This document shows positions 362 through 31,656 of a DNA stretch of 32,175 nt, one piece after another (position 1 is the stretch's first letter; every line of letters begins with the position of its first letter). The notes under the pieces were generated by a model. It did no database searches, was not told where the DNA came from, and saw only the letters and a program-made list of their open reading frames with translations. The position numbers and the translations under genes were made by a program. This stretch comes from a virus. The stretch covers positions 1 through 32,175 of the IMG/VR virus record IMGVR_UViG_3300017742_000057. The stretch is one strand, 5' to 3'.

Positions 362-1207
362 TTAAGAAGAAGCGTCAGCATCATCTTTCTTTTCAGAATC
401 AGCGGCAGCATCTTTCTTTGCCTTTTCCTTTTCTTCCTCAGCTTCCTTTTCCTGCTTTTCCTTTTCAGCAGCAGCGGCGGCAGCTTCCTTTTCCTTCTTT
501 GCCTTTTCAGCGGCAGCTTCCTTTTCCTTCTTTGCCTTTTCAGCGGCAGCTTCCTTTTCCTTCTTTGCCTTTTCAGCATTGTCTGAAGAATCGCCGCCAT
601 CTGCTTTCTTAGCCTTTGCAATGGCCTTTTTATATACAATTTCTGGGTCTTCAATTCCAGCGTCTTGATAACCTCTTGGGACAGGTTTACCTGCTCGCTT
701 GGCCGCTTTTTGAGCTTTACGAAGAGCCTTCTGAGCTTTCATCGTAGCCTTAGCCTTCATTAGTTTTGCACGATCAGCAATCTTTTTCTCACCCTTCTCT
801 GCCTTTTTCGCAGCACGATCAGCGCGACCTGAAACGGTAACACGAGATGCAATTCCTTTACCAATCTTTTTAAGCAAGCTGTCCTTTTCGCTCAATGTAT
901 TAAACCTATCCTCAAGAAGGCCTTCAATCTCTTCATCAGACATCTCAGAGATATTAATGGTTTCATCTTCGAGAATACCGTCAATCGCGTATTCGTAAAG
1001 AGCATCTTCAGTTGCTTCTTCGGAAAGCTCAGTGCTTTCGTTAACACTGGTTTCTTCTTTGTTATTATAAACCTTATCAGCAACTTCCACCGTTTTGGTA
1101 TCAACAGCGCTTTTAACTTTATTTTGCATTAAGTCGTTAAAGGTTGAAGCAGCTTCATCTTTATCGCCCAACGCAAGTGACGTGATTAATTTTTTAATAT
1201 CGGTCAT
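362..1207 (-). CDS. 67: Prohead core (scaffold) protein, gp67-like, expanded
   Basis: Likely an internal scaffold protein of the prohead core. The first roughly 45 residues (KKLITSLALGDKDEAASTFND and the following helix) resemble the start of T4 gp67 and its cyanophage relatives: a short helical segment of the type 'small domain, LF/FN, AM/LM, then K-rich helix'. T4 gp67 is only about 80 residues and very acidic. This protein is 281 residues. An acidic middle (about 50-95) is followed by a long basic Ala/Lys-rich region (about 105-200), then a charged Lys/Glu/Ala tail (about 210-281) with an 11-residue repeat (EKAKKEKEAAA), probably a continuous helix or coiled coil. The gene lies between portal gp20 and the partial gp68-position gene, as in T4. 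An exact TATAAATA lies 5 nt before the ATG and there is no Shine-Dalgarno. The family call rests on position and the N-terminus only. Confidence 0.7.
   Translation of the reverse strand: MTDIKKLITSLALGDKDEAASTFNDLMQNKVKSAVDTKTVEVADKVYNNKEETSVNESTELSEEATEDALYEYAIDGILEDETINISEMSDEEIEGLLEDRFNTLSEKDSLLKKIGKGIASRVTVSGRADRAAKKAEKGEKKIADRAKLMKAKATMKAQKALRKAQKAAKRAGKPVPRGYQDAGIEDPEIVYKKAIAKAKKADGGDSSDNAEKAKKEKEAAAEKAKKEKEAAAEKAKKEKEAAAAAAEKEKQEKEAEEEKEKAKKDAAADSEKKDDADASS
484..576 (-). repeat. 33-bp in-frame tandem repeat (2.8 copies) in the gp67-like gene
   Basis: Identical 33-base units occupy 484-516 and 517-549, and a partial third unit runs over 550-576. A degenerate version continues into 442-483. 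Each unit encodes 11 residues (EKAKKEKEAAA), so gain or loss of a unit keeps the frame. The near-perfect DNA identity points to recent slippage or unequal recombination rather than only protein-level constraint. The encoded segment is expected to be helical. Confidence 0.9.
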
Positions 1208-1212
1208 GTTGT

Positions 1213-1220
1213 TATTTATA
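1213..1220 (-). promoter_or_regulatory. T4-type late promoter TATAAATA, 5 nt before the gp67-like start
   Basis: The minus strand reads TATAAATA, then ACAAC, then ATG. This is the exact T4 late (gp55-dependent) promoter consensus. In T4 the box is centred near -10, so the transcript would start at or next to the A of the ATG. No Shine-Dalgarno is visible between box and start. Confidence 0.7.
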
Positions 1221-1263: not shown

Positions 1264-2763
1264 TTAAAACAGATCGTCTTCCTCTTCTTCAGGTTCATCA
1301 GAGATCTCTGCTTCCATTCTTTCAACGTCTTCTTCAGACATATTAAGAACGTTACTTCTTACCCACTTATTTGAGTAATATTTTCCAATATGAGGTTGAA
1401 TTTGATCAAGCATGTTAAGGCGCTCGCCAAGGATCTCAAAGTCCTTGAGTTCGGAAAAGAAGTTATCCTCAATATAGTCAACAGAGATTGACTCACGAAT
1501 GTCAGGCCATTCAGATTCGGTACAAATGTTTTTCAGCAGGCATTGAACCTTAAGCATTTCGATAAACAGTGCAGAGAACTTCTTCCTTAAACGGTTAATA
1601 AACTTTTGGAATTTAACTTCCTCTCTGCTAATCTCACTTGCTCGGCCAACACTAAACTGAGCGCCTTCAACATCAAGACGACCAACAGGAACGTTCAGTG
1701 AGCGATAAAGTTTCTTTTGAAAGAATACAACGTCATCAATCTGACTAAGGTTTTCACCACCAGGAAGGGTAGTAATTTCCGTTCCTCGTCCACCTTCTCG
1801 CCGTGGCAACCAAAAGTCTTCCAGCATACTCATGGCTTTGCGGTCATCTTTAACTTCACCGCTTGTTGCATCGTAAACAAGTTTGTTTCGATACTTACTC
1901 ATGATACCCTGAACATATTGTTCTGCCTTACCTTTTGGAAGGTTACCAATATCAATGTAAAAGATTCGTCGTTCAGGGGCTCGTGAGATACGGTAAATAA
2001 CCAACGCATCTTCCATGATACGAAGTTGGTTTACAAGTTTAACACTTTTGTGAAGGTAAGAAACCGCGTACTTACCAGCATCATCTAGGTTACCACTTGG
2101 AACATAAACAATACTTGTTGGATCAATTTTAATTGCGTTCGTATTTGATCCTAAATTGTCGCTGTAAAGAAAGTATTCTCTTGCAACGTAATGAGTTTTA
2201 ACCTGACTGTCAGGATCGGTTTTACTTTTAATCTCTTTAATCTTTTTAATCTTAAGAGGATCAATCATTCTTACTTCCTGAATACCCTTTTTGATATTCT
2301 CAGGATCAATAAGAAGGTGATAATAAAGTTTACCGTCAATGTACCACCGGCGGAAAATATCGTGGCCGTTGAAGTTAAAAGAAAGAAGTTTACAAACGTT
2401 TTGAAATTCTTCTCGAATCAAATCTTTAACATTATCAGGAACGTCGAGCGCATCGGTATCGAGATTAACTGGGGTACCTGAGTTATCAGCAACAATTGCT
2501 CCGTTAATAATATCGGAAATAGCGTTATCACATTCGGGTTGGGATGCTGCTTGGCGATATTTAAGAATAGCGTCGCGTTCGTTACCAACGCTTACATCGT
2601 CAAGGTCAAGTGTTTGTCCGTAGTAACCACTTGTGCTATTCCCTGAAATGACCTGACTTCCGTCCGTTTCAATAGGAGGAGCAAAAGACGATATCTTTTT
2701 TTCTTCTTCGCTATCGTCGATTTCTTTTATTCTGCGTGAAATGTCAAGTCCGAATATTTTCAT
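1264..2763 (-). CDS. 20: Portal vertex protein gp20
   Basis: Twelve-subunit portal ring at the unique head vertex, through which DNA is packaged and ejected and on which the prohead assembles. The protein is 499 residues against about 524 in T4. Family-typical segments are visible: N-terminal MKIFGLDISRRI, GYYGQTLDLD, YRQAASQPECDNAISDIIN, FRRWYIDGKLYYHLLIDPEN, SYLHKSVKLVNQLRIMEDALVIYRISRAPERRIFYIDIGNLP (two adjoining pieces), DFWLPRREGGRGTEITTLPG and LNVPVGRL. The C-terminus is a short acidic tail (PEEEEDDLF). The order gp17-18-19-20 is the canonical T4 order. The start is preceded by an AT-rich TATATAAATT element and no clear Shine-Dalgarno. A strong stem-loop separates it from gp19. Confidence 0.96.
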   Translation of the reverse strand: MKIFGLDISRRIKEIDDSEEEKKISSFAPPIETDGSQVISGNSTSGYYGQTLDLDDVSVGNERDAILKYRQAASQPECDNAISDIINGAIVADNSGTPVNLDTDALDVPDNVKDLIREEFQNVCKLLSFNFNGHDIFRRWYIDGKLYYHLLIDPENIKKGIQEVRMIDPLKIKKIKEIKSKTDPDSQVKTHYVAREYFLYSDNLGSNTNAIKIDPTSIVYVPSGNLDDAGKYAVSYLHKSVKLVNQLRIMEDALVIYRISRAPERRIFYIDIGNLPKGKAEQYVQGIMSKYRNKLVYDATSGEVKDDRKAMSMLEDFWLPRREGGRGTEITTLPGGENLSQIDDVVFFQKKLYRSLNVPVGRLDVEGAQFSVGRASEISREEVKFQKFINRLRKKFSALFIEMLKVQCLLKNICTESEWPDIRESISVDYIEDNFFSELKDFEILGERLNMLDQIQPHIGKYYSNKWVRSNVLNMSEEDVERMEAEISDEPEEEEDDLF

Positions 2764-2765
2764 AC

Positions 2766-2775
2766 AATTTATATA
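2766..2775 (-). promoter_or_regulatory. Late-promoter-like element before gp20
   Basis: The minus strand reads TATATAAATT followed by GT and the ATG of gp20. It contains TATAAATT, one mismatch from the T4 late consensus. The box lies only 2-4 nt from the start codon depending on register, so a promoter placed exactly here would start transcription at or inside the first codons. It is a weaker case than the exact boxes elsewhere in the window. Confidence 0.35.
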
Positions 2776-2784
2776 TACATTAAA

Positions 2785-2816
2785 TTATCTCGGGAGGAAT
2801 ACACCCCCCGAGATAA
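2785..2816 (-). terminator. Strong 13-bp stem-loop between gp19 and gp20
   Basis: Inverted arms lie at 2785-2797 and 2804-2816 with a 6-nt loop at 2798-2803. In the transcript (minus strand) TTATCTCGGGGGG pairs with CCTCCCGAGATAA through all 13 positions, with one G-U wobble. It lies 31 nt after the gp19 stop and 21 nt before the gp20 ATG. It is followed by TTTAATG rather than a long U run, so it may act as a leaky terminator, a 3'-end stabiliser for the abundant tube mRNA, or both. It is the strongest hairpin seen in the intergenic regions of the window. Confidence 0.75.
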
Positions 2817-2847
2817 CTGTTTTTAATTTTTACACTGAATAATTTAA

Positions 2848-3405
2848 TTAAGAAGTAACTCCTTCAGCTGTCCAGTATTGATACTGGAAGTCAACTGTAA
2901 ACTCCTCAATCGCGTCATTCGAGTCAGCAGCAAGTGCAATAGCGCTTACGTTTGTTGGAAACGCGTCAACGAAGGTGTATGTTTTAATACCATTTTCGTC
3001 ACCGTCTCGGTCAAGTTGAACCATTTCCATGTTTCGCATGTAGCCCAAGTGTTGCCCGAAAATAGCGTCATCACTAACGTTAGCTTCGTGGTTATTAATA
3101 CGATTTACCCAACCTTCAAACGCATCGCGAAGGTTAAAGTCAACGTCGTTAATAACAGTAATCTGCCAAGCTTCAGCAAAAGTCATATCACCAGCAATTT
3201 TAAGATTTCTTCCTCTAAAGGGAATTTCAATCTGTCCAATAGCGCTAGTAGGGATACCGCTTGTTGCTTTAATCAAAAATCGAGATTGCTCTCTAAGAGC
3301 CTGATTGTTGTCAGGGAATGTAACCCTGCACTCAAACAGGTTGGGTCGAGCGCCACCTTGAAAGTTTGATTTGAATTTTGAAATACCTGTGTTGGTAGTA
3401 GCCAT
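2848..3405 (-). CDS. 19: Tail tube protein gp19
   Basis: Major subunit of the inner tail tube through which DNA passes. The protein is 185 residues (T4 163, marine relatives slightly longer). Recognisable family features include the N-terminus TGISKFKSNFQGGARPNLFE and the following strand, RFLIKATSGIPTSAIGQIEIPFRGRNLKIAGD, EAWQITVINDVDFNLRDAFEGW (in part) and the C-terminal DAFPTNVSAIAL with a final beta strand. It directly follows the sheath gene, as in T4. It has its own exact TATAAATA box 27 nt upstream and a Shine-Dalgarno-like TAGGAT, so it should have a conventional leader. The stem-loop downstream may stabilise or end its mRNA, which suits a highly expressed gene. Confidence 0.96.
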   Translation of the reverse strand: MATTNTGISKFKSNFQGGARPNLFECRVTFPDNNQALREQSRFLIKATSGIPTSAIGQIEIPFRGRNLKIAGDMTFAEAWQITVINDVDFNLRDAFEGWVNRINNHEANVSDDAIFGQHLGYMRNMEMVQLDRDGDENGIKTYTFVDAFPTNVSAIALAADSNDAIEEFTVDFQYQYWTAEGVTS

Positions 3406-3432: not shown

Positions 3433-3440
3433 TATTTATA
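3433..3440 (-). promoter_or_regulatory. T4-type late promoter TATAAATA upstream of gp19
   Basis: An exact TATAAATA on the minus strand lies 27 nt before the gp19 ATG. The predicted leader is about 22 nt and contains TAGGAT as a plausible ribosome binding site. This is the conventional arrangement, in contrast to the boxes 5 nt from the start elsewhere in the window. Confidence 0.75.
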
Positions 3441-8928: not shown

Positions 8929-9873
8929 TTAGAAGTTAAAAGGTTCTCCAAACGGATTCTCTTCGCTAAAGTCAAGAAAGTCGCCAACGTTAACAGCCTG
9001 ACTAAAGGTCGAGTTTTGAGCTCCGTGATCATTTCCAAAAAGCTCGTCATCATCAGCAGTTCCATCACTTATCAGATTAATATTGCTAGCGGTTACACTT
9101 GCTCCAGATGTTTGGCCGGTGAGTACTGTTCCCGTTACCAACGTGTGATACTTCCCATCGTTAAAGGTAGGAGGACTTACGTGAATCCTTTGCAGCTGCG
9201 GAGAGTCGGTTGTAGTACTGTACTTAAAGAACTCGCACGAACCTGTAACCCCACTCGGAAGAGTAAAGTTGAGTGTTTCAAATTCTTGTAGTAACTGCTC
9301 AGGCGAGTCATTGTTGGTATACTCTAAAATCTGAGAATCACCAGCCACAGCTTGTATGTTATCAACTTCCCTTATGCCGGTATCAATCTCTTGGCTTTCG
9401 TATTCAAACAACTCACAAGAAAGTCTAAAAATAGGCAAGTCTTTAAGTTGAGCAAAAGGTTTCTTATCCTCAACAAATTTGATTTCAAACAATCCTTTGG
9501 TCAAGGGGAAGTATATAAGGTCTCCTTCAAGCGGACGAGTACTGTTCTCTGAATACCCGTGTCGACCTATAAGTTGATTCCAGCGAAGATTTGAAACAAC
9601 CAAGTTAACGCTGTCTCGAATCTCAAGACCAAACTTAGAAAGTAATTGCCCATCACCTTCAAAGCCGTCAACGCTTTCAACGTACATCTCAATCTGATAA
9701 GCCTTTTCAAACGCGCTTATAAGATCTTCGTTAAGAATAAGATCCCGCTTAACAATTTTACGAGGAATGTAAAAACAATCTTGACCATATATTTGAATGG
9801 CCTCAATTATCAGCGACTCGTAAAGATCTTGCTCTTGCTTAGATCCGTTTTGAAAGTATTGATTAGTTGCCAT
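8929..9873 (-). CDS. 14: Neck protein gp14
   Basis: Head-completion/neck protein that joins the filled head to the tail. The protein is 314 residues (T4 256). The N-terminus is typical of marine T4-like gp14: NQYFQNGSKQEQDLYESLII, IQIYGQDCFYIPRKIVK, then YQIEMYVESVDGFEGDGQLL, SKFGLEIRDSVNLVVS and GDLIYFPLTKGLFEIKFVE. A variable C-terminal region (about residues 165-270) carries two D-S-P loops, and the end (GDFLDFSEENPFGEPF) resembles the common GDF...NPFGEP tail. The ATG overlaps the gp13 stop by one base (TAATG), which indicates translational coupling. Confidence 0.95.
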   Translation of the reverse strand: MATNQYFQNGSKQEQDLYESLIIEAIQIYGQDCFYIPRKIVKRDLILNEDLISAFEKAYQIEMYVESVDGFEGDGQLLSKFGLEIRDSVNLVVSNLRWNQLIGRHGYSENSTRPLEGDLIYFPLTKGLFEIKFVEDKKPFAQLKDLPIFRLSCELFEYESQEIDTGIREVDNIQAVAGDSQILEYTNNDSPEQLLQEFETLNFTLPSGVTGSCEFFKYSTTTDSPQLQRIHVSPPTFNDGKYHTLVTGTVLTGQTSGASVTASNINLISDGTADDDELFGNDHGAQNSTFSQAVNVGDFLDFSEENPFGEPFNF

Positions 9874-10619
9874 TATCCGATAAATAGGTCAACGGGTTCT
9901 TCGTATTTAAGCTGCCACGTTTCTTTAAGCGCTTGAATATCAGCAGTAGCCTGTTCGTATATTGTAGCTCCACTGATTGTAACTCCTCCTGGAAGTTGCA
10001 TACCTTCAAACTTACTAAGGTTCTGACCCCACTGCTTTTTAATAAGAAGCGTAAGAAGTTCTTTTAAACCCATGTCATCGAAAACATCTGTATAAGAAGC
10101 AGGATCTACGGTTTGATAGGTTTCAAAAATAATAAATTCGCCTTCTGCTACATGGTCTTTAATGTCCGCGTAAAACTTTACAGTATTCTTGTGACGGTTA
10201 AAAGCCATTTGTGTTCCATGCCCGTTGAGAATATCTTCAACCAAGCTCATGTATTGAGAAGTAAGCTCGTAGTTTAAAAGACCGCCGGGGTTTCTCATTC
10301 CAAAGAAGTCATTAAGATACATCTGATATTTCGCATTGAATAAAGATGCACTGGTAAAGTCTTCAAAACCAAGAACCCGAACAACAGCAATAACAGCATC
10401 GGGAACTTCAATTTCGTTACTCGTGAGTTCAGCTGCAGTTACCTGGTGTTTGATCAATGTTTTGACGGTAGCATCGCTGTGATACTCTTGCCAAAATTGA
10501 ATCGCTTCATCAATACGATCTTCAATTTGATCGTCATCAATATTGATTTCAACCACAGGAGCTCCAAGCGCTCTTAAACAGTAGTCAGCTAATTCGGTTC
10601 TAGTTGTTGGTTTAGCCAT
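9873..10619 (-). CDS. 13: Neck protein gp13
   Basis: Neck/head-completion protein that acts with gp14 at the portal after packaging. The protein is 248 residues (T4 309). The N-terminus KPTTRTELADYCLRALG, then VVEINIDDDQIEDRIDEAIQ and FWQEYHSD, is the hallmark of marine T4-like gp13 proteins. The middle (YQMYLNDFFGMRNPGGLLNY) and C-terminus (WGQNLSKFEGMQLPGGVTI) are also family-like. The start is well supported by family alignment in memory. An exact TATAAATA lies 5 nt upstream with no Shine-Dalgarno, so the mRNA may be leaderless. It overlaps gp14 by one base. Confidence 0.95.
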   Translation of the reverse strand: MAKPTTRTELADYCLRALGAPVVEINIDDDQIEDRIDEAIQFWQEYHSDATVKTLIKHQVTAAELTSNEIEVPDAVIAVVRVLGFEDFTSASLFNAKYQMYLNDFFGMRNPGGLLNYELTSQYMSLVEDILNGHGTQMAFNRHKNTVKFYADIKDHVAEGEFIIFETYQTVDPASYTDVFDDMGLKELLTLLIKKQWGQNLSKFEGMQLPGGVTISGATIYEQATADIQALKETWQLKYEEPVDLFIG

Positions 10620-10624
10620 ACAAC

Positions 10625-10632
10625 TATTTATA
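10625..10632 (-). promoter_or_regulatory. T4-type late promoter TATAAATA, 5 nt before the gp13 start
   Basis: The minus strand reads TATAAATA, then GTTGT, then the ATG of gp13. The spacing equals that at the gp67-like and gp8-like genes. With T4 geometry the +1 position falls on the A of ATG. This would be the promoter for the neck and tail-completion genes. Confidence 0.7.
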
Positions 10633-10865: not shown

Positions 10866-11186
10866 TCATTTCCGAATAAATCGCGAAGGATTCTTTGCGA
10901 TCCTTTTAGCCAAAGTAACAATGCCTTCAATTACTTCTGGTGATATAACACCAACAATTCCATAAATCACAGCTTTATACAAACTATCAATTGATGTTTG
11001 CTCTAGTATGTACCACGCAATCCCACTTGATATAGCAGCGGCTGGAATCCGTTTACAAAGAAGCTGAGCGGTAATACTTTCCTTTGAAGAAAGAATTCTT
11101 GCGATCATACCCGCCGCACCAATAAGTGGAACCAACCAACCTCCATCTAAGAAGGCCTGGATTAATGATTTTTGGGGCTCTTGCAT
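10866..11186 (-). CDS. Putative holin (LydA/Phage_holin_3-like)
   Basis: Likely forms holes in the inner membrane to time lysis. The protein is 106 residues. After a short polar N-terminus there are three hydrophobic segments: about 15-33 (GGWLVPLIGAAGMIARIL), about 47-62 (RIPAAAISSGIAWYIL) and about 68-90 (LYKAVIYGIVGVISPEVIEG). They are joined by short charged loops, and the tail is basic (KRIAKNPSRFIRK). The arrangement 'L-GA-A-R-L ... R ... A..G...W ... Y..G..G..SPE..E' resembles the P1 LydA-type holin family. Context supports a phage late membrane protein. No endolysin is present in the window. An exact TATAAATA lies 18 nt upstream. The alternative is an unrelated small virion or superinfection-exclusion membrane protein. 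Confidence 0.68.
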   Translation of the reverse strand: MQEPQKSLIQAFLDGGWLVPLIGAAGMIARILSSKESITAQLLCKRIPAAAISSGIAWYILEQTSIDSLYKAVIYGIVGVISPEVIEGIVTLAKRIAKNPSRFIRK

Positions 11187-11204: not shown

Positions 11205-11212
11205 TATTTATA
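11205..11212 (-). promoter_or_regulatory. T4-type late promoter TATAAATA upstream of the holin-like gene
   Basis: An exact TATAAATA on the minus strand lies 18 nt before the holin-like ATG, in the short gap after the helical-repeat gene. The predicted leader is about 13 nt, with no obvious Shine-Dalgarno. It would let the lysis pair be expressed independently of the glycan-modification genes. Confidence 0.65.
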
Positions 11213-11235: not shown

Positions 11236-11991
11236 TTAAATATAGTTTTTTAACAAATCATTAGCTTTCGTGTAAAGCCTTGGACACCTTACATTATCCT
11301 TACCCATGATTGTTTCTAAAATTGCTGACGCCGCGATAATTACAGAAAGCCTGTCGACAAGTACTATTTCAAAGTTGTGAATTGCAGCTTCATAAATCTC
11401 TTTTGAATATTCTGCGTCCTGCCCTGTCACATAACACGCTCCCAACACATTTACCATTGCTGCAGGCCATAATTTAATATCAGCAAAGGAATGTATCTTA
11501 TTGAAAAAATTTAAAGCCTCGTTGACATTTCTTTCTTTTACATAGCAATGTGCCAGTGCAGTCCAAATTGAGGTGATCCAACGATAAGTAAATTTACGCC
11601 AATAAGGATCATTGAATTCTTTGAAACCTTGCAGGTCTTTATAAAGACTTTCCAGCTCATCAATAGATCCCATGTCGTCATAAATGTATCGATAAGCAAG
11701 TGTACAAAAAGACTGACTTACAACTTCAAATTTATCGGGATAGATCTGAGCTAAAAGAAAAGCCCGACATCTTTGGTACCCTGCCGGATCGTCGTTTCTA
11801 CCTTTAAAGTTTCTTACAAACCTTTTGGGGTTATAACGAAGGCCTTCTAACATTCGGTTAAATTCATCAAGATCCAAACCCGGAATAATCAGATCATTAT
11901 CAGGAAGGGATGAATAGTCAAACGAAAGCTTAGTATCCTTATAGGTTATAAAAACACTATTTTCTTTCCAAGAAATATTAGGGACCATCAT
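11236..11991 (-). CDS. Helical-repeat (TPR-like) protein of the glycan cassette, unknown function
   Basis: About 251 residues if the start is the ATG at 11989-11991; the next codon, at 11986-11988, is also ATG. The open frame extends upstream to an ATG at 12069, but that start would overlap the sulfotransferase gene by 92 nt. The internal start, with about 14 nt of overlap, fits the tight packing of the operon better. No clear Shine-Dalgarno separates the options. The N-terminal 40 residues look beta-rich (ENSVFITYKDTKLSFDY). The rest is helical, with TPR-like alternation around WTALAHCYVKERNVNEALNF and VNVLGACYVTGQDAEYSKEI. It could be a scaffold or specificity partner for the two upstream transferases. 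I do not recognise a specific family. Confidence 0.68.
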   Translation of the reverse strand: MMVPNISWKENSVFITYKDTKLSFDYSSLPDNDLIIPGLDLDEFNRMLEGLRYNPKRFVRNFKGRNDDPAGYQRCRAFLLAQIYPDKFEVVSQSFCTLAYRYIYDDMGSIDELESLYKDLQGFKEFNDPYWRKFTYRWITSIWTALAHCYVKERNVNEALNFFNKIHSFADIKLWPAAMVNVLGACYVTGQDAEYSKEIYEAAIHNFEIVLVDRLSVIIAASAILETIMGKDNVRCPRLYTKANDLLKNYI

Positions 11992-12967
11992 TTTCGGAGG
12001 TATTATTAAGTTGATCTGAAAGTTCTTTAACCTTATCTTCAAGCTGGTCAATACGACCCATGGCTTCAATAGAGAAGATGATTGCTTGGTCCACCAGTCT
12101 TTTGTAATCTTCTTCGCTTATCTTCCGTTCTTTAGGGGGCGGGTCATTTTGAAACGAGATAGATTCGTCTCTCAGAATCATCGCTAAGCTTTCTATGTCT
12201 TTTAACGAAAAATAATTTTTTGAATACTCTTGAACGCTACCGTAGTTTACATACGTGTCAAACTTGTGAGGTGTGACGGGGTCTGAATACGTATTATTAT
12301 AGATAGCTCTCGACAAAATTTCAGATGATGATGGAGTTTCATACGCTCGGATTCGTGGAAGGTCTAAGCCCGTAACCTCACAGAAGTCGTCAATAATATT
12401 TTCCCCTTCTTTATATTGTCTAATTTCAGCAATTTTTCTCCACCACTTCCAACTGTTATAAGTTCCAGCGCCAAATTCATGAAACCATCGAGGTAAAGTC
12501 ATTGAGCGTAAAATCTTTTCGTCCATCCTCCTTCGCCGCTCAAATATTTTGCCTTCAAGAACTTTATGTCTAAGACCCCACTGCTCCCATGCTGACTTTA
12601 GCCACTGCCCGGGCGCTCTAACATAAAGTATAATCTGAACATCAAGATCAGGTGACCAGGTCGAAAGATGTCTAAGTAACTTAACAGCTTCTGGGGTATT
12701 GGATATTGCTTCGTTTGACCAAAAAACGTGATCACAGCCGGTCTTCTTTGAATGAGAGACAATAATCTTATACAATGTTTTGGTCTTTTCTGCGGTGTGC
12801 TGCGAAACTAACCACTCGTGATTCATTCGATTCCCATCGGGTAAAATTGGCCACAGCCTTCCCAGACCCGTTTTACCCGCCGTAAGATTTCCTTTATACT
12901 CTTGTAATGCAAACTGAATTGCACTTGTTCCGGTTTTACCTAAACCGATATGTGCTGTAAACTTCAT
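11978..12967 (-). CDS. Sulfotransferase-like protein (PAPS-dependent type)
   Basis: Probably transfers a sulfuryl group from PAPS to a glycan or protein acceptor. The protein is 329 residues. The N-terminal HIGLGKTGTSAIQ (residues 6-18) matches the 5'-phosphosulfate-binding loop of sulfotransferases (HIG..KTGT..IQ). A second strand-turn, IILYVRAPGQWLKSAWEQW (residues 112-130, with Arg117 and Ser125), matches the 3'-phosphate-binding motif. A conserved-looking VFWSNEAI lies between them. The C-terminus is a charged coiled-coil-like segment (about 295-325, EAMGRIDQLEDKVKELSDQL). The ATG overlaps the glycosyltransferase stop by 4 nt (ATGA), so the two are coupled. No PAPS-synthesis gene is visible, so PAPS would come from the host. 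The acceptor is unknown. Confidence 0.8.
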   Translation of the reverse strand: MKFTAHIGLGKTGTSAIQFALQEYKGNLTAGKTGLGRLWPILPDGNRMNHEWLVSQHTAEKTKTLYKIIVSHSKKTGCDHVFWSNEAISNTPEAVKLLRHLSTWSPDLDVQIILYVRAPGQWLKSAWEQWGLRHKVLEGKIFERRRRMDEKILRSMTLPRWFHEFGAGTYNSWKWWRKIAEIRQYKEGENIIDDFCEVTGLDLPRIRAYETPSSSEILSRAIYNNTYSDPVTPHKFDTYVNYGSVQEYSKNYFSLKDIESLAMILRDESISFQNDPPPKERKISEEDYKRLVDQAIIFSIEAMGRIDQLEDKVKELSDQLNNTSENDGP

Positions 12968-14124
12968 CCAATTAATCTTTCTACCTTTTCATCCCAAACA
13001 CTCTTAGAGAATTTTTCGTTAACTAGTTTTCTAGCAGAGTGAATTTTCGACCTACTTTGACCTGTTAGGTGGAAGTAAAGAAGTTCCGCGTATTTTTTTG
13101 CTTCATCCTCTATCTCAAAATCAATCAAATAGTTTAAAGGAACCAGTTCGCTTACAGCACCAACATTACTAACAGCCATTGGAACTGACCACTGCATTGC
13201 TTCAAAATATGTAAGAGGTATACCTTCGTCAACCGAAGGGCAAACAAGCGCACTGGCTCGTTTATAATACTCTTGCATTTGTTTATAATCAATACCTTTC
13301 TCAAATTGTATCCAGTGGCTAACTTTCAGTTTCGCTGCATGTTCTTTAATGTCTGTATAAAGCGGGCCGTCTCCAACAAACTTAAAAACCGGCATATAAG
13401 CGGCAGGTAAAAGCTTAGCCAACTCTGCAGCAATATCACAAACAAACTTAGGACGTTTTTGAAAGTGAAAGCGGAAAGGACATAGTACGTACCTGGGATC
13501 TTTATCTGTTTTCCTTAAAGGCCAAGTCTTTTCTATCTCAGGAAACCCGAACCAATAAAGGGTTTCAATCATTCTTTTATTTACGCCTTTTTCAATAAGT
13601 TCATTCTTAAGCTTATCCGAAACAGTTAGTACCAAATCAAAAGGAGTTCCTTTTTGAAGGCTTTTCTCAAAGTCCCAAGGTTCTTTTAAAATCATGTGAA
13701 ACAAAGAAATTAACTTTGTATTTGGCGCAGCTTCTTTTATTGCCCAAGCTTGATCATAAGCTTCATGCGAATTATTGACAACCGTGTAAACGGGTTGCAG
13801 CTTTCTAACGATTTCTATAACCTCACCGGCACAAATAACGTCGTCAGCAAGTTCGGTAAATGCAGATTCCCTTCGGCTTTCTTTATGCGGCATTATCCGC
13901 GTTGTTATAATGACGATTCTAAAGCCTCTGTTTTTATAATGCAGCATTAAATCCAAGCCGCATCTATCCGCTCCTCCGAGCGACATCCAAGGGATGATAA
14001 GACAAAAGACGGGCTTTTCTTCAGTGTGCTTTGACTGAGATTTTAGAATGACCGGTTTTTTACCAAGTGCATGGCGGGACGGTCGAGATGTTTGGCGTTC
14101 AGTTCTTTTGGACCTTCGGGACAT
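12964..14124 (-). CDS. Glycosyltransferase, GT4-like (GT-B fold)
   Basis: Likely transfers a sugar from a nucleotide-sugar donor. The protein is 386 residues. After a basic disordered N-terminus (about 1-35) the GT-B fold begins with PVFCLIIPWMSLGGADR, whose GGA is the usual acceptor-side glycine motif (about residues 50-52). The C-terminal donor domain shows CPFRFHFQKRPKF (about 215-227), FKFVGDGPLYTDIK, and the EX7E signature EGIPLTYFE with Glu300 and Glu308, followed by PMAVSNVGAVSELV. It starts 16 nt after the collagen-like fibre gene and is coupled to the sulfotransferase. An AT-rich TATATAAT stretch precedes the start. No membrane segment is seen, so it probably acts in the cytoplasm, on a virion protein or on a precursor of a host or phage glycan. 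Confidence 0.9.
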   Translation of the reverse strand: MSRRSKRTERQTSRPSRHALGKKPVILKSQSKHTEEKPVFCLIIPWMSLGGADRCGLDLMLHYKNRGFRIVIITTRIMPHKESRRESAFTELADDVICAGEVIEIVRKLQPVYTVVNNSHEAYDQAWAIKEAAPNTKLISLFHMILKEPWDFEKSLQKGTPFDLVLTVSDKLKNELIEKGVNKRMIETLYWFGFPEIEKTWPLRKTDKDPRYVLCPFRFHFQKRPKFVCDIAAELAKLLPAAYMPVFKFVGDGPLYTDIKEHAAKLKVSHWIQFEKGIDYKQMQEYYKRASALVCPSVDEGIPLTYFEAMQWSVPMAVSNVGAVSELVPLNYLIDFEIEDEAKKYAELLYFHLTGQSRSKIHSARKLVNEKFSKSVWDEKVERLIG

Positions 14125-22200: not shown

Positions 22201-24699
22201 AATCTTACCAATATCGCGCATTGTATAGCGGCGATGGTTGTATTTCTCAACACCAATGTTGGTTGCTTTAAACGTATAAGCAGGAACAAACAAGTCGAAA
22301 AGGACCAAGCCATTTGCTGAGTTAGTAGGAGGAACAGCAGTAAGACTTGGTGTTCCTTTTTCGATTGAGAAATCTCCGTTTGGTAAAATAGTTACTGAGT
22401 CAACACGGGGTAAGAAGTAATCAATCTTACCGGTAATTGCGCTATAAGGATCAAGCGCAAGAATATCTGTTGTGCTTGGGTAAGGTCTAATATCAAAGAA
22501 GTCTCCCAAACGTTTACCGTTGTAAAGAGGAATATCCTCAAGATCAGATTGACCGCCAGAAGAGTTTCTATAACTGTTTACCGTGTAATAGTTACCTCCG
22601 CTAAACTTCCAGTGCTTTACACTAATGGTAGATGCACCAGCTTTAAGGCATCGAACTTTAGCAAGTTCGTATTCTGTTGACCTCTGACCGTCACTAACAA
22701 GTTCAAAGTTATCATCTTCAACGCTGATCAGGTGAAAGACATTCGGAACTTCAACAATATCCCCAACGGCTGGCAGAGGACTGTTATTTAAAGTTATTGT
22801 TTCGGTGGTTTCGGTTTTAATACCAATGTTGGTAAGGTCATTTACTACTGTAGCAATAATGCTAATAACATCTCCATCGGCCGCTGTTGGAATATCTAAA
22901 GTTAGCGAATCCGTGTCAGCGCTTGACACAACAGTAAATTGTGTTGGTAGTAAAACCTTATCTTGAGTAGAGTTGTAAACAGTAATTGAAGAAGGACTCT
23001 TATCAAATGTTACTCCAGTAAGATCAAAGGTTACTTCGTTACCAGAAGCTACCGGCATGTCAGCAGAGAGGTTAACTCTTTCAGTAACTTGAATTGAGTT
23101 AAACTTTCTAACCGCTATTCGAGAAAGTGGAAACAGCGTTGAATTAATTTGTGTATCGTGTAACTTAACGCCGTTCCTTGCTTCAACATTAAAATGAAGT
23201 GTGCCATAATCGGTAACTGCGGCTCCTCTAATGGTTTCTACATTGTCAAATTTCTTTCCAGTATTAAGAGAAATATCGTGAAGAAACATACGATGCTTGG
23301 CGCCGTCAATAAGCTCAACTGAAAGAATTTTACAAGTACCAATTGTTGCATCACTTGCATCCAAAAGGTTATAAGTTCGACTGTAATTATCAAAGAAAGG
23401 TAAGCCTTCACCGTTACCTGTACCATATCCTGATTCGGGACTAGAGTCAGTTTCAGGACTAGCAAGAGGGGAAGCAAAGTTATCAACATTTCGAAGTTGA
23501 CCTTCAACATAGTTACCCATATTGGCCACGGCTGAACTATCTTCCAATACTCCGCTTCGTAAATCGGCTGCGGATACCCGTGCTTTATCTCCTAAAAGCG
23601 TAAGCGGCGATTGCAGATCAACTCTTTTTCCACGAACATAAGCAACGGAAGGGGAAAGAGTAGCTGCATATTTTTTGTCCGCATCTGTTTGAGAAAGATT
23701 ATTAGCAGCGGTGCTATTTTTATAACGTCCTGTGTATGAAGCAGCGTTTAAAACTTCTTGAATTTCAATACCAAAATTGTTTACCACATAGCTTCCGCTT
23801 TCTTCAAAAGTTCGTTGGGCAAGAATTTTTTCAAGAGTAGTACCACTGTTATCAATCGCATTCTCAACAATAATAACCTTGTTATCTTTAATCTGTAAAA
23901 GAATTACATAATTGTTATCGTCCTCAAAGGCTGTAACCAAATCCAAAGTAAGAGTAATTTGATAACGATCCGCGCCTGGTGCAGCAAAGTTTGGTTGCCC
24001 GTTTGCGTTATCAAACAACGTTGAATCCGCACCACTAGTAACTTGCTTTTCACCGATTTTTAATACTGCATACCCGTCGAAAAGTTCATCTTCTCCAAGG
24101 GCTCGGCAGACAAACTGTTCTGTAGCGGAAGCTAAACAACCATTGACAAAGAAGATACCGTTTGGCAAAAACAAGCTAACAGCGTTACCGTTGTTAATCA
24201 CGGTACCATTAATAACATTTTCCAGTGTATCTTCAATCGCCACCCCGCCTGCTGTAATTTCATTTACAGTTCCGGTGGTATTAGCTTGACGATATTGAAT
24301 ATAAAGACGATACGTAAGATTCTGGAGTAACTCTCCTTTTACCAACGCTGCTGTAATGGTGTCGTTAGATGTTACAGAAATACCTGTTGTGTCAGCAAGT
24401 AATTTAGCAAATGCATCTCCATCAGTTGTGTTTTCAAATGTAACATCAATAAAGCTTAACGTATTATCAAAGGTGGTGTCACCGCCAATAATAGGACTGT
24501 TTGGTTTAAACAAACTCTGGCCAAGACGATCAAGTTGCGCTTGAAGAAGCGACTGAGCCTGGTTAAGCTCCCTTGCCTGAACGGTTCGCCCCGGCTGGAA
24601 TAAAATCCTTAAATAGTTTTTATCCAGAGGAGTTAAACCGGCAGTGTCCGGTGTGTTAATGTCGTCGTAATACTTTGATGTGTAAGCCGTGATTGCCAT
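19255..24699 (-). CDS. Giant baseplate/peripheral structural protein, DUF4815-type (gp10-like position)
   Basis: Large virion structural protein, 1814 residues, encoded after gp8 as T4 gp9/gp10 would be. The N-terminus (KYYDDINTPDTAGLTPLDKN, then YLRILFQPGRTVQARELNQA and QSLLQAQLDRLGQSLF) is the DUF4815 signature of marine T4-like phages. A linker rich in Gly, Arg and Trp (about residues 1020-1070) precedes TRTVTETRVVQERIEQALG and the conserved VRPYARSKALYFRAEGLKPS with FYFFIDGVDVTSN (about 1080-1130). The C-terminus (EFSSFIIKIVMRGKNYGDAP, then SKDLRIIATV) is also family-like. The ATG overlaps the gp8 stop by one base (TAATG). It probably sits at the baseplate rim and carries fibres. An orthology claim to gp10 would be inference, so no symbol is given. 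Confidence 0.88.
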   Translation of the reverse strand: MAITAYTSKYYDDINTPDTAGLTPLDKNYLRILFQPGRTVQARELNQAQSLLQAQLDRLGQSLFKPNSPIIGGDTTFDNTLSFIDVTFENTTDGDAFAKLLADTTGISVTSNDTITAALVKGELLQNLTYRLYIQYRQANTTGTVNEITAGGVAIEDTLENVINGTVINNGNAVSLFLPNGIFFVNGCLASATEQFVCRALGEDELFDGYAVLKIGEKQVTSGADSTLFDNANGQPNFAAPGADRYQITLTLDLVTAFEDDNNYVILLQIKDNKVIIVENAIDNSGTTLEKILAQRTFEESGSYVVNNFGIEIQEVLNAASYTGRYKNSTAANNLSQTDADKKYAATLSPSVAYVRGKRVDLQSPLTLLGDKARVSAADLRSGVLEDSSAVANMGNYVEGQLRNVDNFASPLASPETDSSPESGYGTGNGEGLPFFDNYSRTYNLLDASDATIGTCKILSVELIDGAKHRMFLHDISLNTGKKFDNVETIRGAAVTDYGTLHFNVEARNGVKLHDTQINSTLFPLSRIAVRKFNSIQVTERVNLSADMPVASGNEVTFDLTGVTFDKSPSSITVYNSTQDKVLLPTQFTVVSSADTDSLTLDIPTAADGDVISIIATVVNDLTNIGIKTETTETITLNNSPLPAVGDIVEVPNVFHLISVEDDNFELVSDGQRSTEYELAKVRCLKAGASTISVKHWKFSGGNYYTVNSYRNSSGGQSDLEDIPLYNGKRLGDFFDIRPYPSTTDILALDPYSAITGKIDYFLPRVDSVTILPNGDFSIEKGTPSLTAVPPTNSANGLVLFDLFVPAYTFKATNIGVEKYNHRRYTMRDIGKIDTRVSNLEYYTSLSLLEKGANDKSIFDDDGTARFKNGLVVDGFRNFTIGNARSSDFLCHYERERGHLYPAFKGYSIPFELISTDGIDIDADSEFTESGLHNEVLTLPYNQVAYITQPYATQFMSVQPYEFVATLGQMILAPEVDTWNDTITAPEIDFDIFGGTTLFDTLNDVLENQAGRANAASGIGSANAGWRAARPGEGNPALGGGWRRDTTRTGPWWEREETRTVTETRVVQERIEQALGEFVTDVKVRPYARSKALYFRAEGLKPSSKFYFFIDGVDVTSNAHLLTRSEIINSHEHTETAILTSQIEGEVEKFLTNDLTVPTWFGTRWYNLKSSDRSFATTVANQNTALRYWSYVKTILDTINATTNSAEEKTRQINSLLPGFDQSSLSQYDGADEATLLAAFPTSDIISDADGVAEGIFIIPNNDTLRFSSGEKTVTITNSPRNLKEESTSNASARFISNGLEINKQALNISTTLPRLQRETRTETRTNTIYDPLAQSFSVTDTTGIFATSIDLFFAGKPATENTKVPVQSYIVTTSNGYPTGEVVPGSEISIDWEDVRTSTDASLATTFEFPHPIHLAADTEYATVCFSTSPEYTAYIAEQGGDKTDLQTGHVITSQPALGSLFASSNKSTWTPMQNKDLKFTLRRGSFATNQTAQFVAGPQVGTHLGEIDSTTISNNTGWNELTCTVTVEAPFTTVIDSDGNSTKVAVSGGITTTATPVFNPDDSSISKINLVRKGFGYLEVPTVTITDGTKTETITGTLNRYNVGAFSLNQKSINLGGKTSIRNEVFFEETKYDVEPLLPVEYITNQNHNIQASNIDKTNLQTFFSSTDERLTPVINRDLSLETRDYFISETGDTSQYITREMALDNLSDQIDVYLDVNRPSTTSEIEVFAQLKDTNNAIISSTETDTNFHTLSAINPTSIPVNINRGRFSEVRFNLNTEPVEFSSFIIKIVMRGKNYGDAPFSKDLRIIATV

Positions 24700-26699
24700 T
24701 ATAGTTGGATGATAAGTTTAAGCTCTTCGTTTTGCCCTTCAGCTCGAGTAACTGTAGATCTGTTATCAATAAAGACCACGTCTCCAGTTCCTTTTTGGTA
24801 TGTAGAAGTAAATTTAGCGTCGGGTGTCAAGCTGGTCGTAACGGTTGATGAACCAAGTGTGTCATCTTTAGGTGCCTCAAAAGTAATTGCAGAAGCTTCG
24901 CTAGTTTCACCTGATACAAGAATTGGCTCGTAACCATAGTAATGATCGGTGTAATAGTAGTATCTAAAAGTACTTAGTTCACTACCAGACTCTCGTGTTT
25001 GCACGTGAGAAATAACGCCAACCTTTTTACCATCTTGAACGATTTGCCACCCAGCACCAATATTATTTGCGCCGTCTGCAGGAATTACTTGAGTCCCTGG
25101 GAACGTAAAATACTTAAGAGGTTGAACGTAATCCGCAGTAAGATTCGCGTCAGCTGCATTGAGAGGATTTTTAATAACGCTAACCTGATGATATTCTGTA
25201 GCATCAGGAATATAAGTAGCATTACCGGTATCAATAAAAAGTCCAAGGTAAAAGGCTGGAAGCGTTTCAAACTTGGCAAACCCAAATCCTTCAATAGGAC
25301 CAATCTTTGGCATGATAACCGCATCTCTTCTCAAACTTGCGGAAGCGTAACTCGATACATCAGGGCTATCATCGAATCCTAGAATACCTGAAGTATTACC
25401 ACGAAGATCTTCAAGTCTGGTGGTTGTGAGCGGCGAACCGCCAGCTGCGCTTATATCAACCCTGCAATCTTTCCATGCAAGAATATCAGCAAAATCAGTT
25501 GTGTAATTTGTATCAGTAAGTCTAATTTCTGAAATTGATTTGGTCGCAATATTAATCACGTGATCAACGTCGGTGATTGTTTCACTGCGAGAAAATCCAA
25601 ATTCATCTATACCGCGTAAGGTAATATCAGCTTGAATAGTAACGGTTGTATCTCCGCCAGTAAAGAGACCTGGGTCAGGCTCGTAAACGTTACCGCCATC
25701 AATTATATTAAATCCGAATACCAAACCACCAGTTTTTGTTTTGATATAAGAAGTAAGGTTATCACTTCCAGCAAGAGTAAATACAGCAGGAGATTCGCTT
25801 AGGCTTTCAACATCCGCTTTGGTATCTCCACCAGAAAGAGTTGTAGCCGTGACTAGTGTATTAACTTCAGGGGAGTCTGCGATTGAATCGCGAATCGCTT
25901 GAGCAAGTTGGTCAATCGTAAGATCAACTTCACCAGGGCTATCAGCAGAAGCTGGAACAGTGATTGTTATATCCGTTCCAGTAACCGCAACTGCAATAGC
26001 ACTTGCTTGAGGACTCGATTCATCAACCACAAATGTAACCGTAATACCGTTTCCGGAAATACCAGTTGTTTGAGCTTCAAGTTTTAGCGTACCATCAGTA
26101 AATTGCACAAACGCAAAAGCTGCAGTGGTGTTATCACTTGAAGAAGTTGTAGCACTGCCGTTTCCAATATCAATAAACTGAGAACTGTTAATGTCGCTGT
26201 ATTGCTCAAACCTTCCAAGGTATGTAAACACATAACCTGAAGTTGTTGAAAGAATTCCGTAATCAGTAAAGGACTGGCCAAGACGCGCAATCACGTCAGC
26301 ATCAACCGCAGATCCATCAACCGGAGCCTGTAGAACCAAAAAGATTTGATCACTAACTGTAACGTAGCAAGGTTTAAGGTCATTGGTCGTATCGGTATAA
26401 AAACACGTTGGATCAAGAGGATCAAACGCCTTGTATTTAGTTGATATCGCAAGATCGTTACGTGGAATCACTCGGGAAATATTTGTTGAATTAATTCTAA
26501 ATAATCCAGTGATGTGATCCAAAACGCGTTGTTGATCGTTAAATGTTCCAACCGGAAATGGAGCGGTAGCAGAAGTACCTGCAACATCGTCCCATGCATC
26601 TTGTTGACCAATCCCTACGTAATAGGAATTACTCGTAATATCCGATTCCAGTATGTCCGCAGAATTTCTTCGGAACTGTTCTGTAATGATTGCTGCCAT
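24699..26699 (-). CDS. 8: Baseplate wedge protein gp8-like, enlarged
   Basis: Wedge subunit of the baseplate. The protein is 666 residues, twice T4 gp8 (334). gp8-type features are the start (IITEQFRRNSADIL, YYVGIGQQDAWDD, PFPVGTFNDQQRVLDHITGL, ISRVIPRNDLAI) and the C-terminal strand block (GFGFAKFETLPAFYLGLFID, ATEYHQVSVIKNPLNAADA, VQPLKYFTF). An extra domain interrupts the family between about residues 200 and 312. It begins TGISGNGITVTFVVDES and contains ITITVPASADSPGEVDLTID, QLAQAIRDSIADSP and LVTATTLSGGD. This pattern recurs in phage structural proteins as an inserted beta module. An exact TATAAATA lies 5 nt before the ATG. The stop overlaps the next start. Confidence 0.88.
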   Translation of the reverse strand: MAAIITEQFRRNSADILESDITSNSYYVGIGQQDAWDDVAGTSATAPFPVGTFNDQQRVLDHITGLFRINSTNISRVIPRNDLAISTKYKAFDPLDPTCFYTDTTNDLKPCYVTVSDQIFLVLQAPVDGSAVDADVIARLGQSFTDYGILSTTSGYVFTYLGRFEQYSDINSSQFIDIGNGSATTSSSDNTTAAFAFVQFTDGTLKLEAQTTGISGNGITVTFVVDESSPQASAIAVAVTGTDITITVPASADSPGEVDLTIDQLAQAIRDSIADSPEVNTLVTATTLSGGDTKADVESLSESPAVFTLAGSDNLTSYIKTKTGGLVFGFNIIDGGNVYEPDPGLFTGGDTTVTIQADITLRGIDEFGFSRSETITDVDHVINIATKSISEIRLTDTNYTTDFADILAWKDCRVDISAAGGSPLTTTRLEDLRGNTSGILGFDDSPDVSSYASASLRRDAVIMPKIGPIEGFGFAKFETLPAFYLGLFIDTGNATYIPDATEYHQVSVIKNPLNAADANLTADYVQPLKYFTFPGTQVIPADGANNIGAGWQIVQDGKKVGVISHVQTRESGSELSTFRYYYYTDHYYGYEPILVSGETSEASAITFEAPKDDTLGSSTVTTSLTPDAKFTSTYQKGTGDVVFIDNRSTVTRAEGQNEELKLIIQL

Positions 26700-26704
26700 A
26701 ATGT

Positions 26705-26712
26705 TATTTATA
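26705..26712 (-). promoter_or_regulatory. T4-type late promoter TATAAATA, 5 nt before the gp8-like start
   Basis: The minus strand reads TATAAATA, then ACATT, then ATG. It has the same 5-nt spacing as at gp13 and the gp67-like gene, in the 27-nt gap after the gp7-like gene. No Shine-Dalgarno is present. Confidence 0.7.
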
Positions 26713-31206: not shown

Positions 31207-31638
31207 TTATCGTGTTCTTGTTAAAAGAAAAATAAATTCTACTTCAGTGCCATACGACATTTGAAAAGTTGTTGTAATGCGGTAAGCGTTTCTTTCGTGA
31301 TCATCAGTAACCTGAACCTTAAAATTTAAAATTCTTTTTTCAAACTTCTTAATGCCGCGGTCAATTTCATCTTTAAGCAAAGAAGCAGTAAAGTTATCTG
31401 CAAGTTCAAATAAAAGACTGGTGGCCCGTGTACCAAATTCTGGGAAAAATGGACGAGTACCAATTGGTGTTAACACAATGTTTTTAATACTGTTTTTCAC
31501 CGCATCAATATCCGTGGCAGGAACCACATCACCAGTAACGGGATGAATAAATGTAAAGCTTACATCTTTAAAAACACTTCCTGCTACAACAGTTGGTTGA
31601 TAATTGGGTTTGTTAAAGTCTGAAAGAATGCTGTTCAT
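31207..31638 (-). CDS. 25: Baseplate wedge protein gp25 (lysozyme-like fold)
   Basis: Wedge core protein of the gpW/gp25 family that forms a sheath-initiating element with gp53 and gp6. The protein is 143 residues (T4 132). The family core is visible: DVSFTFIHPVTGDVVPATDI, AVKNSIKNIVLTPIGTRPFF, PEFGTRATSLLFELAD, then LLKDEIDRGIKKFEKRI and a C-terminal beta hairpin. T4 has gene 25 elsewhere, but in marine T4-like phages it precedes gene 6 as here. An exact TATAAATA lies 10 nt upstream, giving a predicted leader of only about 5 nt. Confidence 0.95.
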   Translation of the reverse strand: MNSILSDFNKPNYQPTVVAGSVFKDVSFTFIHPVTGDVVPATDIDAVKNSIKNIVLTPIGTRPFFPEFGTRATSLLFELADNFTASLLKDEIDRGIKKFEKRILNFKVQVTDDHERNAYRITTTFQMSYGTEVEFIFLLTRTR

Positions 31639-31648
31639 TACTTATTTC

Positions 31649-31656
31649 TATTTATA
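31649..31656 (-). promoter_or_regulatory. T4-type late promoter TATAAATA upstream of gp25
   Basis: The minus strand reads TATAAATA, then GAAATAAGTA, then the ATG of gp25 (10-nt spacing). With T4 geometry the leader would be about 5 nt, too short for a normal Shine-Dalgarno. It heads the gp25-gp6 baseplate unit. Confidence 0.7.

Follow-up and report, generated by a model that had tools for sequence, protein, structure and literature searches.

Late promoter boxes placed five bases before the start codon predict leaderless late mRNAs in certain T4-like phages

Introduction

Textbooks use phage T4 as the model for late transcription in viruses and for translation driven by Shine-Dalgarno (SD) pairing, and the leaderless mRNAs known from phages mostly concern single regulatory genes. 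In a survey of T4-like phages, the T4 late box was placed at positions -13 to -6 (PMC1524935). The 5′-terminal AUG of leaderless mRNAs is recognised by ribosomes, according to the passages of PMC5312081 and PMC5607370 that cite Brock 2008 and Moll 2002, and for T4 gene e and similar genes a promoter-dependent translation has been described that is brought about by a hairpin in the read-through RNA (PMC3014915). A full-text search of open-access papers turned up no description of late mRNAs without a leader in phages of the T4 type.

The window analysed here is the whole stretch of 32,175 nucleotides of the viral record IMGVR_UViG_3300017742_000057. An initial annotation had pointed to three genes in which a late promoter octamer is followed by exactly five bases and the ATG (the N5 layout), and had proposed that their late mRNAs would lack a leader.

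Late promoter boxes in the window

The octamer TATAAATA occurs six times in exact form in the window, always on the minus strand, which is the coding strand, against 1.9 occurrences expected from shuffles. The N5 layout was confirmed at all three genes, with the ATG at 1207, 10619 and 26699, and several of the genes that carry TATAAATA upstream on the coding strand are virion genes by their PHROG matches. The sites and the genes that they precede are as follows.

1205..1207, minus strand: ATG start with predicted +1 at 1207, gene 362..1207 (281 aa, “gp67-like”), adjoining the portal gene
1213..1220, minus strand: late promoter octamer TATAAATA, spacer ACAAC, 5 nt to the ATG of gene 362..1207
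3433..3440, minus strand: TATAAATA, 27 nt to the ATG of the gp19-like tail tube gene 2848..3405 (phrog_45); its longer leader contains AGGA and serves as a contrast within the window
9873..10619, minus strand: gp13 / head-tail adaptor Ad2 gene (phrog_211), predicted leaderless, +1 at 10619
10625..10632, minus strand: late promoter octamer TATAAATA, spacer GTTGT, 5 nt to the ATG at 10619
11205..11212, minus strand: TATAAATA, 18 nt to the ATG of gene 10866..11186, a leadered contrast
24699..26699, minus strand: gp8 / baseplate wedge gene (phrog_438), predicted leaderless, +1 at 26699; leaders of its orthologs are treated below
26705..26712, minus strand: late promoter octamer TATAAATA, spacer ACATT, 5 nt to the ATG at 26699
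31649..31656, minus strand: TATAAATA, 10 nt to the ATG of the gp25-like wedge gene 31207..31638; predicted 5-nt leader

The product of gene 362..1207 had no match in PHROG, and the name “gp67-like” is putative. For the gp25-like wedge gene, a box 9–10 nt from the ATG, i.e., a very short leader, is kept in the orthologs of the window's clade (L084–L248). Inside the virion gene cluster, two genes at 11978–14124 have no virion match, and one of them has a weak glycosyltransferase match (phrog_2170).

Since boxes also lie 18–27 nt upstream of start codons in the same phage, including the gp19-like tail tube gene at 27, the coexistence of two late modes that had been proposed for this window is borne out at the level of promoter placement.

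A longer record, IMGVR_UViG_3300020469_000036 (71.7 kb, referred to as G009), overlaps the window. All three N5 sites are found in it, each shifted by 38,936, and the two gp8 sequences are 100% identical. The longer record has seven sites with a spacer of five or six bases, all on one strand, and encodes a homolog of the late sigma factor gp55 (phrog_234, 32001–32462, E 1.6e-49). It also holds a homolog of the RegA translational repressor (phrog_242, L112:956–1390), again with TATAAATA-N5-ATG, and a tRNA-Ala(TGC) at L112:3551–3623. When the host was sought with this tRNA, the longer pattern gave no match, and the shorter core pattern matched many unrelated bacteria and phyla.

Box-to-start spacing in related phages

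Related loci were fetched with the gp13, gp8, portal and gp6 proteins, and pieces of T4, RB49, KVP40, Syn9, S-PM2, S-SRM01, C48C1, HTVC008M, Mosig and Melnitz-3 were added. A nucleotide search with the gp8 gene and a tblastn search with gp8 gave no matches among the named phages, and gp13 and portal were for this reason used as queries. The distance (d) was counted from the end of the box to the ATG of the called gene, and each N-terminal cluster (60% identity) was counted once at any given distance.

Among the 320 non-redundant gene-start clusters so obtained, from a sample biased toward relatives of the window, there was one at each distance from 0 to 4, followed by 55 at a distance of 5, 17 at 6 and 28 at 7–10. 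The distances of 11–14 formed a trough (3, 1, 5 and 2 clusters; 11 in total), which was followed by a broad hump at 16–37 (7–16 clusters at each distance from 16 to 31). A second sample of 80 loci, collected via the gp13 of HTVC008M, had six boxes at a distance of 5 and a single one each at 3 and 6; the distances of 7–15 were empty, and 54 boxes lay at 16–59. The distances are thus two-peaked, which speaks strongly against the even spread that had been named as the outcome contrary to the leaderless reading. Distances of 7–10, equivalent to short leaders of 2–5 nt, do occur, and the placement is not always exact.

The octamer consists of A and T only and the window is 60% AT, and one might suppose that such spacings arise by chance in an AT-rich genome. 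This is extremely improbable: in the window's clade a box lies at a distance of 5 or 6 in 32 of 319 starts, where 200 dinucleotide shuffles averaged 0.3 and never exceeded 2, the reversed-pattern controls were near zero, and permuted octamers had no peak at 5.

Where transcription would start

With the box at -13 to -6, a spacer of five bases puts +1 on the A of the ATG, provided that the start position calibrated in T4, as is assumed here, is valid for the gp55 and the host polymerase of these phages. The base composition around the predicted start was followed in the leadered genes and in the N5 class, all of these statistics resting on a home-made gene caller. In the leadered genes (200 clusters), the sixth position past the box held A in 69% and G in 14%, i.e., a purine in 83%, and C in 3%, and the fifth position held G in only 7% and C in 10%. 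A purine was likewise found at the sixth position in 31 of 42 genes of T4, RB49 and KVP40. A pyrimidine preceded the ATG in 54 of 55 clusters of the N5 class, compared with 220 of 319 background starts (P = 3e-7; the P values here and below treat clusters as independent) and 107 of 187 leadered genes. With a spacer of six bases the sixth position is mostly T (65%), so that the A of the ATG would again be the favoured +1.

Leaderless initiation depends on AUG, and the start codons at distances of 5–6 were ATG in 105 cases, GTG in none and TTG in two, as compared with 249 ATG and 28 others at distances of 15–35 (P = 0.005). The base composition and the start codons are independent signs of a start on the A of the ATG. 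The proposal of leaderless late mRNAs made in the initial annotation gains support from the spacing, the published box position and this composition.

A variant of this reading is that transcription starts a few bases away from the A, giving leaders of 1–3 nt, so that the mRNAs would be short-leadered and not strictly leaderless. Distances of 6–10 are indeed common in the SD-free clade of the window, and transcription start sites often wobble by 1–2 nt. Against it stand the phages that use SD, with 34 cases at a distance of 5 and only 2 at 6, and the signature of a pyrimidine at -1 and an A at +1, which fits initiation at the A itself; on balance, such an offset is unlikely.

Shine-Dalgarno sequences

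The three N5 genes were correctly described as having no SD. This turns out to say nothing about leaderless translation, because the whole clade of the window has no SD above background: a motif was present at 0.10 of 175 starts as compared with 0.13 in the control window, and G001/G002 and G010 had no enrichment either. In T4, HTVC008M, Mosig and Melnitz, by comparison, the proportion was 0.53–0.70. The SD-free starts extend over the window and loci L004–L018, L084–L094, L111–L123 and L227–L248, unlike nearly all other T4-like phages examined, and suggest that these clades infect a host without SD pairing. The N5 peak is nevertheless sharpest in the phages that do use SD (34 and 2 cases, as given above), so that promoter placement without a leader is a question distinct from translation without SD.

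Terminators abutting the box

Of the 70 gene clusters with a distance of 5–6, 13 were scored as having a terminator-like hairpin and a T-run in the 25 nt that precede the box, and about a dozen of the 13 are convincing, with the T-run ending 0–6 nt from the box (e.g., L025, L168, L190 and L112:15380, the last of which is in the longer record of the window's phage and has a hairpin of -21.3 kcal/mol). In these isolated genes, box and spacer (13 bases) fill nearly all of the gap between terminator and ATG. As the terminator abuts the box, transcription from upstream can hardly feed this dozen of N5 genes, which would leave them only their own promoter.

These terminators bear on the view that the boxes are late promoters whose proximity to the ATG merely reflects tight packing, the proteins being made from leadered polycistronic mRNAs begun further upstream. 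In the window itself this view has something in its favour, in that folding found no strong terminator hairpin in the gaps of 27–56 nt between co-directional genes in which the three N5 boxes lie, and in a clade without an SD signal any AU-rich upstream region might serve for initiation. Read-through, leadered mRNAs probably also exist at these three genes, because they are not isolated by a terminator. As a general explanation, packing is nevertheless quite improbable: it would not lead one to expect nearly empty distances of 0–4, clusters piled up at exactly 5 or a trough at 11–14, and it accounts neither for the genes closed off upstream by a terminator nor for the pyrimidine at -1 in all but one of the N5 genes.

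Upstream of the portal gene a hairpin was found in the window next to a variant of the box.

2764..2830, minus strand: hairpin, then variant box TATATATA 6 nt from the ATG of the portal gene 1264..2763 (phrog_213)

The hairpin has a folding energy of -24.4 kcal/mol, and none of 200 shuffles was equally stable. The portal gene is a possible further near-leaderless late gene. Whether TATATATA is a full variant of the promoter was considered, and it may be, the counts being too small to say more.

A different arrangement is seen in a set of cyanophage-like gp13 genes (L056, L057, L058, L065, L074, L075 and L079), where TATAAATACCTCTAGGAAACTAGGGGTATTTTTTT or a near copy lies directly before the ATG; this terminator-like hairpin separates the late promoter from the gene.

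Orthologous genes in two modes

Among gp13 orthologs with matching N-termini, the nearest box lies at a distance of 5–9 or at 16 and more, with hardly any in between. On a tree of 100 rows, the near-box state needs at least seven changes, and the 16 rows surrounding the window all have it. The gp8 orthologs that share the motif MxAII..FR fall into two groups: those of the window's clade and of G001/G002 have distances of 5, 6 or 9, and those of HTVC008M and its relatives have distances of 15–25, mostly with AGGA-type motifs. The leaderless mode would accordingly have been gained or lost several times among marine T4-like phages, judging from box placement.

The starts of these genes were called by machine, which raises the question of whether the ATG behind the box is simply wrong and the protein begins downstream, behind a normal leader. 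The N-termini of gp13 and gp8 align from residue 1–3 with orthologs that have long leaders, and this occurrence of the same N-terminus in both modes all but excludes a misplaced start codon.

The N5 layout is present in the window and in many uncultured relatives. None of the 50 exact-box genes in the coliphage, vibriophage and cyanophage genomes (T4, RB49, KVP40, Syn9 and S-PM2) lies 5–6 nt from its box, compared with 21 of 64 in HTVC008M, Mosig, Melnitz, G009 and G002 (P = 1e-6). The window's phage, the pelagiphages HTVC008M and Mosig and the methylophage Melnitz each have 2–6 boxed genes at this distance, and the genes so placed include gp8, gp13, gp25, a tail-tube protein, the DNA end protector gp2 and RegA. 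The N5 placement thus belongs to some T4-like clades only; the classical T4-like phages examined do not have it.

Proposed mechanism

The positions of the boxes, the distribution of their distances, the bases at the predicted start and, for some genes, the terminator just upstream were observed directly. They are very probably explained by octamers that act as gp55-type late promoters, with transcription starting on the A of the AUG or at most one base from it, such that leaderless or nearly leaderless late mRNAs would be made alongside leadered ones. The gp55-polymerase would open the DNA at the octamer and start on the A of the AUG. Ribosomes would then bind the 5′-terminal AUG directly, probably as 70S monosomes, instead of by SD pairing. 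Both the 5′ ends and this ribosomal route are predictions from the promoter layout. The trough at distances of 11–14, which correspond to leaders of 6–9 nt, might mean that only leaders close to zero length, or with enough room for a ribosome site, are tolerated.

The layout could also serve as a timing gate: if read-through RNA has no ribosome site, only late-sigma transcripts that start at the AUG would be translated. This is a speculative idea, with the chances rather against it; were it true, translation of chosen structural genes would be tied to replication-coupled late transcription and to initiation at a 5′-AUG, and the absence of a leader would achieve what hairpins in the leader achieve in T4.

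Comparison with known systems

The phages described here share with T4 the octamer TATAAATA of the gp55/gp33/gp45-dependent late promoters, its use in front of late structural genes and a gp55 homolog. They differ in its placement, in that 0 of 42 exact-octamer genes in T4, RB49 and KVP40 start 5–10 nt past the box (the nearest in T4 is at 14), whereas many in the relatives of the window start at exactly 5. The likeness to T4 gene e is that efficient translation would be reserved for the transcript from the late promoter; in gene e this is due to a hairpin in the read-through mRNA, and here the cause would be the absence of a leader or ribosome site.

With leaderless mRNAs of the lambda cI type, the N5 genes have in common the predicted 5′-terminal AUG and the strong preference for AUG; an SD is also absent from the three N5 genes of the window, where the whole clade has none above background. 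Here it is a whole set of late structural genes, under a phage sigma-like factor, that would be expressed in this way. In practical terms, the N5 layout helps the calling of gene starts in viral metagenomes. If the reading is true, widespread marine relatives of T4 make part of their virion proteins from leaderless mRNAs, as a second mode of translation within the same promoter system.
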